Positions 20,331-24,146 of a stretch of 64,000 nt of DNA are shown here, piece by piece. The translations under genes were made by a program, and so were the position numbers. The notes beneath the pieces were generated by a model, which was given only the letters and a program-made list of their open reading frames with translations, did not search any database and was not told where the DNA came from. Where the stretch lies: NCBI RefSeq assembly GCF_001315985.1, contig NZ_BBBI01000002.1, forward strand, positions 62,001 through 126,000. Direction: 5' to 3'. Each line of letters opens with the position of its first letter. The first letter of the stretch is position 1. The DNA is from Vulcanisaeta distributa JCM 11216. Lineage in GTDB: Archaea; Thermoproteota; Thermoprotei; Thermoproteales; Thermocladiaceae.

Positions 20331-21339
20331 ATGGCATCAGGCAAGGAATTGATGGCATTACTACCAAGGCTATCAGACCTGGTTAAGAGGGAGGAGATAC
20401 AGGTTAATAAATTAGTCACAGATGCGATAAGGACCAAGGGCGTTAAGAAAATACTTACGGAGTTGGAGAGGGAGCTTAAGGGCCTGGATGACATAGCGAT
20501 GGACGTATTAAGTAGCCTTGCCGTTGGTAGGCACGTGCTGATAATGGGGCCTGTGGGCGTAGGAAAAACCACATTGGCCGAGAGTTTAGCAGAAATACTA
20601 CACGTATCAGAACCCCCCCATATATCGAGGTCGCATGCCACAGCCACATGACGGCCACGGAATTGACCGGCGATATTGATATTGCCGTAGCCCTACAGGC
20701 AGGGCTCGATCACCCACTGGCCTACATACCCGGTCCTCTTGTGATGGCTCATGGCGGCATACTAATACTTGATGAGATAAATAGGTTAAACCCCCCCTAC
20801 AGCCAGGCAGCGCTGCTTCAGGTGTTACAGGAGCACTACGTGTTCATTAGGGGGGGCTTCAAGATAAGGAGTGACTTCCTAGTAATTGCCACATCAAACC
20901 CATCCGAGTACTCGGGTGTTTATGAACTCAGTGAGGCTTTGGCGGATAGGATGAAGGTCGTGGAGATACCATACCCAGACAAGGACCTCCTCAAGTCGAT
21001 ACTATCCTGGAAGAGCAGCCTGTACATGGAGCACCTTGGTCTTAAGGCCCCAGACGCATTAACGGAGGTCACTGCGACATTCATGACCTTGGTCTCCCAG
21101 GACAGCAATATTGAGGTTGGCCCGAGCATTAGGTCGGCGATCTATGCAATAACCACGGCAATGTCAAAGGCATGGCTTGAGGTAGGGAAGTTTCGTTAAA
21201 TGACTTGAAGAGGGAAATCATTAGTAATATGGTTAATGTCGTTCGCGGAAACTTCGCCAATGAAACCGAGAAGAGGGATTATCTTTCCCGTAAGTTTGAT
21301 GAGGCAGTGATGATGTATAGGAGATATTCAAGGAGATAG
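20331..21339 (+). CDS. MoxR-family AAA+ ATPase
   Basis: MoxR ATPases act as chaperones that insert cofactors or remodel complexes together with vWA proteins. Walker A GPVGVGKTT, the segment HSHMTATELTGDID, Walker B LILDEINR, sensor 1 VIATSNPSEY and the arginine segment ADRMKVVEIPYP are present. C7 at 20613-20619 (five fit) and a missing G near 21190 break the frame; repaired, the C-terminal lid continues to SRKFDEAVMMYRRYSRR and TAG at 21337. The two proteins downstream include a vWA protein, the usual partner. Confidence 0.85.
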
Positions 21340-21422
21340 CCATTAGTATGAACAGGCATAAGTAATTAAATGGGTAAGTTATTTAATACGGCGCACACCA
21401 TCTATAGTGGGGGGGTTAAGAC

Positions 21423-21956
21423 TTGAGCACGAATATTGACCCAGCACAAATAATCACGAGGGTACTTAGCAAGGTTTATGAGTATTTACGGGAAGATTTT
21501 AGAGTTATTAGGCCTGGCTCGGTGAGGAGCTTCGAGGCTGCGGCTAGCGACATAATGATGAGAATATTGATTGAGGGTGGCTTTGATTATGATAAGTTTA
21601 AGGAGACGGTGATCCGAGTAGGCATTGAGAATCTGTACCTATCTGTAGAGACGTCAAATCCAGATGATAAAAGGAAGGTCCTTGAGGAGGCCTTTGAAAG
21701 GGCATTTGAGGATGCCGAGAAAATGCAGGAGACGACCGAGGAGGCTCCAACACAGCAGGTTGCTGGATTTAATGTTAGCAATGGTGGTGAAATTAATGAG
21801 AATGTGGAGAGAAGCGATTATGAGAGTAGTACGGGCAGTATTAGTGGTGGGTTTGGCGCTGAGTATAGTGCGAGGAGGGTCAGGAGTTACAGATGGGTAG
21901 GTCATTGGTTGCCAATGTTGATGATCATGGCAAGGACGCAAAGCTCGACTCAATAA
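21423..21956 (+). CDS. Unknown protein in the MoxR-vWA operon
   Basis: Starts at a TTG (21423) just after a G7 run, reading MSTNIDPAQIITRVLSKVYEYL. About 175 residues with an N-terminal helical region, a long acidic linker (EEAFERAFEDAEKMQETTEE) and a low-complexity Gly/Ser/Asn stretch near the C-terminus. Its end overlaps the vWA gene by 64 nt. Because the two frames abut at RRVRSYR/MGRSLV, they may be one protein split by an indel, with this as the N-terminal domain. Confidence 0.55.
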   Translation: MSTNIDPAQIITRVLSKVYEYLREDFRVIRPGSVRSFEAAASDIMMRILIEGGFDYDKFKETVIRVGIENLYLSVETSNPDDKRKVLEEAFERAFEDAEKMQETTEEAPTQQVAGFNVSNGGEINENVERSDYESSTGSISGGFGAEYSARRVRSYRWVGHWLPMLMIMARTQSSTQ

Positions 21957-22954
21957 TATCAACAATATATGAAATACTATATGGCGGTGTCGGTACAGTC
22001 AATTTCCTAAACCTTGCCCAATTAATAAACATGTTCATTGACCCATATGCAAATATTGTGGAGAAGACTAAGGTGCTCAGGAAGATGGAGCCATACCTCA
22101 GGAACTACGGCCTATTGCCTACTGACTTCAGGAGGAATAGGGATGGGGGGGAGAGGGTGTTTGAGGCTTTGAGGAATGTGGTTAGGAATGCAATGAGTGG
22201 TATGGGGCAGGTTAAGGTTGTTAGGTTCACGGACATAGATAAGTACCCAACATACGTAGTCAGCGTTAGGGAGTACAAAATTGGCGATAATTACTTCGAC
22301 GTTGACCTGCAGAAGACGGCTATGAACCTGAGCAGGAAGTCCATGATGCATAAACTATTCACTAACAAGGACATCGTGGTTAAGGAGTACGCGAATGTTA
22401 AGACCATAGACATCGTGCTTTGTTTAGACGTATCGGGGGGGAGCATGAGGGAGCTCAGTAATGGGATGCCTAAGATAGAGATCGCCAAGGATGCGGTGGG
22501 CCAGTACATACAATTCCTATCGAAAACCAACGATAGGCTTGCCATGGTACTATTCAACTTCAGGGCCGACGTACTCTGGGGGGGATTGCACCAGGTTAGG
22601 AGGTATTGGCAGCAAATGAATTACATGCTTAAGTACGTGTACGCCGGCGGCGGTACAAACCTGGCAAACGCCCTTGAGAGGTCCAGGGAGGTATTGACCA
22701 GGTCCAGGAGCAACTCTAAGCATGTTATCTGTGTGACCGATGGTAGGACTGTTAATTCGAGTATGTGCATTAAGGAGGCGGTTAGGCTTAGGAGGGGGGG
22801 TGGCGCTACAATATCCACCATAGCCATTGGCGAGAATAGCGATGATGAATTGTTAATGAGGCTTTCGAAGATTGGCGGTGGCCTATTCATAAAGATAAGC
22901 AGCATTCATGACCTGGGTAAGGCATTGATAATGGATAAGCTGCATAGCATGTGA
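21893..22954 (+). CDS. von Willebrand factor A domain protein
   Basis: Likely partner of the MoxR ATPase. A helical N-terminal region (about 170 residues) is followed by a vWA domain: strand IDIVLCLDVSGGSM, FLSKTNDRLAMVLFNF, the threonine-bearing loop GGGTNLANAL and VICVTDGR. The MIDAS metal site normally reads DxSxS; here G7 at 22435-22441 makes it DVSGGSM, with an extra glycine that should distort the site. Without the extra codon it is a textbook DVSGSM. Three other G7 runs add glycines elsewhere. Confidence 0.82.
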   Translation: MGRSLVANVDDHGKDAKLDSIISTIYEILYGGVGTVNFLNLAQLINMFIDPYANIVEKTKVLRKMEPYLRNYGLLPTDFRRNRDGGERVFEALRNVVRNAMSGMGQVKVVRFTDIDKYPTYVVSVREYKIGDNYFDVDLQKTAMNLSRKSMMHKLFTNKDIVVKEYANVKTIDIVLCLDVSGGSMRELSNGMPKIEIAKDAVGQYIQFLSKTNDRLAMVLFNFRADVLWGGLHQVRRYWQQMNYMLKYVYAGGGTNLANALERSREVLTRSRSNSKHVICVTDGRTVNSSMCIKEAVRLRRGGGATISTIAIGENSDDELLMRLSKIGGGLFIKISSIHDLGKALIMDKLHSM

Positions 22955-23032
22955 TTTGGCCTCCCATAATACATTGGGTATAAACTTGTTTTCTTTATAT
23001 ACCTACATGTGATTATTAATTCGGTGACTTCA

Positions 23033-24146
23033 ATGCTTAGGTGCTTCAGCGATTTTGTGAGCTTCATAGTGAAGTACCCATTCAGTAAGGAGGGGGGGCT
23101 CACAAGGTTCAGGGAAATAACGAGTGAGAGGGGGATTTACATTAATGACCTTGCGAATTCGGTAGTAGGTAGGCAACTGCTTCAGCGGGCCTACGAAATA
23201 CTCAGTGAGGCTGTCCTGAAAAACTCAATAACCGATGACCCCCCGACCTCGGTGAGGATGAATTACTGGCTCATTACATAGCCATAGTCCTTGCGGCGCA
23301 CCTAGATAAATCGCTTTGGAGGAGGTTTGCGGATGTTGAGAGCAAGAGGTTCTCGGGTAAGTTGGCGCTTGAGGACCCTGACTGCGTGATATACATTGCC
23401 AGGGAATTCGGTATTAATGCCGTGAGACTTAGAGACCTCGATATTTATGACGAAGGCCTGGCGCTGGCGTTTGATGTTGGTGTTAGGGTTTGGGATTACC
23501 TGAGGTTCATGCCTAAGAACGACCCCCCCTACTGGAAGCTAGTCAATAGGTACCTGCTTAAGGGTTGGGTATTAATGACGTATAAGGACCTTGTTAGGCT
23601 GGTGGAGGAGGCTGTTGAGAAAAGAGTCCTTGAGCTAATAAGTAAGGCGCACGAGAATTTAGATGAGACGAGGCCATTGATCGATGCGCTCGGTGGTATG
23701 AAGGAACTCATGGAATATAGGTCAGGGTTTACGAACAGGGTCAGGGTTCAAATAACCGGGTTAACACCGCCATGCATGGAGACAATAATTAATGAGATTA
23801 AGTCCGGAGGCAACCCAAGTCACCAAGCAAGGTTTGCCGTGGCCGCCTACATGCTCAGGAGGTGCCATGACCTCGAGGGGGGGAAGCCCATGGAGACTGC
23901 GTCGAAGAGATTATTAATTTATTTAAGACGGTGGCCGACTTTGACGAGAAGAAGACTAGGTACCAGGTGGAGCACATAGCCGGCCTTAGGGGGGGTGGGC
24001 ATAAGTTCTACATGCCGCCGTCCTGCCAGGAAATGAATAGCCTTGGCCTATGCCCAACAAACCTGGGCTGCGGCGTTAAGAATCCACTTCAGTACACAGT
24101 TAAGGCAATTAAGAAATTTCAATCAATGAAACAAGCGCAGGGTTAG
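23033..24146 (+). CDS. priL: DNA primase large subunit (PriL)
   Basis: Regulatory and Fe-S subunit of the replicative primase. The N-terminal helical domain (VSFIVKYPFSKEGG, REITSERGIYINDLA) and the C-terminal 4Fe-4S domain are present; the four cysteines are in TPPCMETI, PPSCQEM, LGLCP and LGCGVKNPLQY. The frame breaks at C6 23239-23244 (four fit DDPDLGEDELLAHY) and near 23908 (one G missing). G7/C7 runs add residues at KEGG, NDPPY, LEGGKP and LRGGGHKF. A box TTTATATA (about 22994-23001) supports a start at ATG 23033 or GTG 23024. It overlaps the next gene tail to tail by 4 nt. Confidence 0.9.

Follow-up and report, generated by a model that had tools for sequence, protein, structure and literature searches.

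The G7 run in the metal site of a Vulcanisaeta vWA gene is almost certainly an artefact of homopolymer length in the draft assembly

A MoxR-vWA locus with an extra glycine in the metal site

The window, a 64-kb stretch of the Vulcanisaeta draft genome G000 (2.42 Mb in 65 contigs, 68% complete), carries a vWA protein gene adjoined by a gene for a MoxR-type AAA+ ATPase (Table 1). The translated ORF at 21893-22954 matched the Pfam VWA profile (PF00092) with 52.1 bits against a curated cut-off of 23.8, which is 13-17 bits lower than the 65-69 bits of close homologues; a six-frame PF00092 search of the same genome gave no match at the cut-off, though the translated ORF matches. The gene is conserved across the genus and family, and most close relatives in the genus encode it as one open frame of 507-511 codons. 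Apart from the differences described below, the protein of the window is 99% identical to that of its closest relative. In the ATPase gene, AAA_3 (7.7e-15) and AAA_5 (2e-10) domains were detected in 20648-21196, together with weak P-loop matches in 20331-20648. Downstream of the vWA gene, the DNA primase large subunit gene (PF04104, 4e-13; window positions 23009-23979) is split into several ORFs and has seven-base runs inside it, which points to assembly error in a gene that should be essential.

Table 1. Features of the vWA locus, in window coordinates
Feature	Position	Strand	Remark
MoxR-type AAA+ ATPase gene, upstream	20331..21199	+	Two broken ORFs (20331-20651, 20648-21199) with three seven-base runs
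G7 closely preceding the vWA gene	21409..21415	+	G4 in G002 and G007
N-terminal part of the vWA gene	21423..21956	+	Cut short where one base is missing near 21871, compared with G002 and G007
ORF, C-terminal two thirds of the vWA protein	21893..22954	+	Pfam VWA match
Further G7 in the vWA gene	22145..22151	+	One extra glycine relative to relatives
G7 in the MIDAS codons	22435..22441	+	G4 at the homologous site of the complete genome G007 (TCG GGG AGT)
Further G7 in the vWA gene	22578..22584	+	One extra glycine relative to relatives (WGGL vs WGL)
Further G7 in the vWA gene	22794..22800	+	One extra residue relative to relatives

The plus strand at 22427-22447 reads GACGTATCGGGGGGGAGCATG (TCG GGG GGG AGC across the run), with the G7 at exactly 22435-22441, and the translation of the ORF contains LCLDVSGGSMREL. 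An earlier note had claimed that this run turns the vWA MIDAS into DVSGGSM, and both its coordinates and its reading proved exact. As written, the window copy therefore departs from the ungapped DxSxS arrangement of the vWA domain (PF00092). The motif reads D(V/T)SGSM without insertion in 24 of 24 homologues, at identities from 99% down to 42%, and its residues form invariant columns in the family alignment. The complete genome G007 has exactly four G at the site (TCGGGGAGTATG), while other relatives mostly use synonymous codons that contain no run of four. No insertion at the motif was found in the vWA structures retrieved from the PDB by profile, where the displayed alignments spanning the motif were ungapped; a PDB search with a single protein as query returned nothing at E 0.01. 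The accompanying statement that known vWA proteins tolerate no insertion at this site holds for the relatives and for the best solved vWA structures, which is narrower than a survey of all vWA proteins. We judged the departure in the window copy to be a sequencing error.

Run lengths in the window and among related genomes

Exact G/C run lengths in the window were bimodal, with 68 runs of four, 27 of five, 15 of six, 119 of seven, and 8 of eight, whereas A/T runs fell off smoothly with length. Markov models based on the composition of the window predicted 5-7 G/C sevens, against the 119 observed. In 200 kb drawn from three complete Vulcanisaeta genomes (60-80 kb each) there were no G/C runs of seven, and none was longer than six. 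Runs of four occurred there at 20-28 per 10 kb, compared to 10.6 in the window. When kept G4 and G7 runs were compared for sequence context, no position stood out after allowing for 24 tests, nor did kept and expanded runs cluster along the window.

We then aligned the window to its relatives and read every run from the side of the relative. Where the relative had a G/C four, the window carried three additional bases at 48 of 83 sites for the closest relative, G002 (BBDN, JCM 16159), 19 of 33 for G007, 10 of 16 for G003, and 7 of 14 for G010, with the other fours mostly unchanged. G/C fives of the relatives appeared as five to eight in the window, while G/C runs of one to three were nearly always unchanged and A/T runs practically so. 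About 1-3% of G/C threes were one or two bases short in the window relative to relatives. Since an addition of three preserves the reading frame, four-to-seven errors do not themselves break genes. The breaks, such as the unrelated missing base near 21871 in the vWA gene, come from other one-base errors; frames would be disrupted by losses in short G/C runs, not by the additions of three.

In the reverse reading, sevens of the window corresponded to four (48) or five (3) bases in G002 and never to seven. This result bears on the possibility that the excess is an artefact genome-wide and yet the G7 at 22435-22441 is real, placing an extra glycine in the MIDAS. A single site is not provable from an assembly, but an insertion missing from every homologue read, over the whole range of identities and within invariant columns, combined with the lack of any true seven among the aligned runs, makes this reading very unlikely. 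That the vWA MIDAS of a Vulcanisaeta strain truly accommodates the inserted glycine as DVSGGSM is likewise highly improbable.

Counts of G7 and C7 over 25 genomes of the family gave 4803 in G000, 3857 in G008 (BBBJ, V. distributa JCM 11217), and 7958 in G020, a 47% complete draft from another genus of the family. Each of the ten remaining Vulcanisaeta genomes had 0-5 such runs, and no other family member had more than 119; three drafts carry the signature, and the other 22 family genomes searched lack it. A class-wide search of 81 genomes revealed no further case near the level of the affected drafts. At the vWA locus of G020, three bases were likewise added at 6 of 10 runs of four. Two other JCM drafts, G002 and G004 (BBDM, JCM 14467), had no G/C excess. 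They showed a slight excess of A/T sevens and eights (9 in 80 kb and 12 in 60 kb, respectively), which complete relatives lack entirely or almost entirely.

Ribosomal RNA genes and real expansion of runs

The organism could instead truly have expanded G/C runs, with a lineage-specific process adding three bases to G4 and C4 that is tolerated because the frame is kept. Most changes are indeed frame-preserving additions of three, and the vWA protein is otherwise nearly identical to that of its closest relative. Because +3 preserves the frame, a real and tolerated expansion is not excludable from protein genes alone; the 16S gene can decide.

The 16S rRNA gene of G000 agreed with that of the sister strain G002 at 1229 of 1232 aligned bases (99.8%). 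Three bases were added at 11 of the 24 G4/C4 runs of the reference, and one or four bases at four more. Among the affected segments is the sister strain's AAAGGGGATTAGATACCCC, which is near-universal in small-subunit rRNA. Similarly, the partial 23S rRNA of V. distributa JCM 11217 carried three additional bases at 22 of 43 runs of four. In both genes the length differences lay only in homopolymers, and here they fall within conserved non-coding RNA. The 16S rRNA as written could not form working ribosomes, and a cell would scarcely survive with it, so its DNA does not hold the runs in their written form.

Additions of three thus dominate even in the 16S and 23S genes, whose products have no reading frame to keep and whose conserved segments are hit as well, which argues against real expansion. 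The signature also occurs in three drafts, one of them from another genus, with intervening relatives that lack it; the affected sites differ between G000 and G008; and the affected drafts are 47-68% complete. Collectively, these observations make a real expansion extremely improbable. It is just as implausible that the vWA gene is a pseudogene decaying in a living cell, as its split near 21871 and four in-frame G7 runs might suggest, given that its neighbours, including the MoxR ATPase gene and the presumably essential DNA primase large subunit gene, are broken alike and that most relatives in the genus have a single open vWA frame.

Origin of the error, its consequences, and comparison with known systems

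Since the draft writes most G/C fours as seven, even within an rRNA gene, the G7 at 22435-22441 is, on the sequence comparisons above, almost certainly an artefact of homopolymer length in this draft assembly. The earlier note had put the site forward as a diagnostic case for the reality of the seven-base runs, and its implied suspicion that they are not real is backed by the homologues, the rRNA genes, the run-length spectra, and the sister drafts. On this reading, a base caller or consensus step turned many true G/C fours into seven and reported true G/C fives or sixes mostly as six to eight, leaving A/T runs and shorter G/C runs largely right. Behind the observed excess of sevens, their mapping to fours in relatives, their presence in rRNA genes, and their confinement to three drafts within the family may lie a fault in the calibration of G/C signal to length from run length four upward, with output of mostly seven or eight. 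The DNA of the cell almost certainly has a normal MIDAS, DVSGSM, at this site.

The inserted glycine is not a real feature; it reflects no novel biology, and the biology of the locus is ordinary. The finding's sole use is to warn about data quality. Thousands of G4-to-G7 errors occur in each of at least three archaeal species-representative drafts, placing spurious residues at thousands of sites and accompanying low estimates of completeness. Any gene prediction, protein family, phylogeny, or rRNA survey drawn from these drafts inherits the errors.

One feature counts against an artefact: the jump from four to seven, with five or six only rarely produced, is unusual for homopolymer miscalling of the ordinary kind, and our literature search for a four-to-seven homopolymer error found no specific description. 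Flow-based sequencing usually gives a spread of +1 and -1 errors that grows with length, unlike the sharp +3 peak at fours, limited to G/C, observed here. In other respects the drafts resemble Ion Torrent and other flow-based data, in that the errors concern homopolymer length alone, few bases are substituted, completeness drops, and the platform is documented for a sister draft (PMC9872577). According to PMC9872577, the Ion Torrent PGM was used for that draft, BBBK (V. souniana JCM 11219). Its accession neighbours BBBJ; further JCM drafts of the genus include BBCT and BBDO (PMC5069417). We infer that the Ion Torrent PGM was also the platform here, although it is documented only for the neighbouring-accession draft BBBK.

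As in other MoxR-vWA and CoxE-like pairs, an AAA_3/AAA_5 ATPase lies immediately upstream and its partner bears a vWA domain with a MIDAS, and no distinctive difference remains here once the homopolymer error is discounted. By sequence, the locus likely encodes a MoxR-vWA pair of the ordinary kind whose MIDAS is intact.
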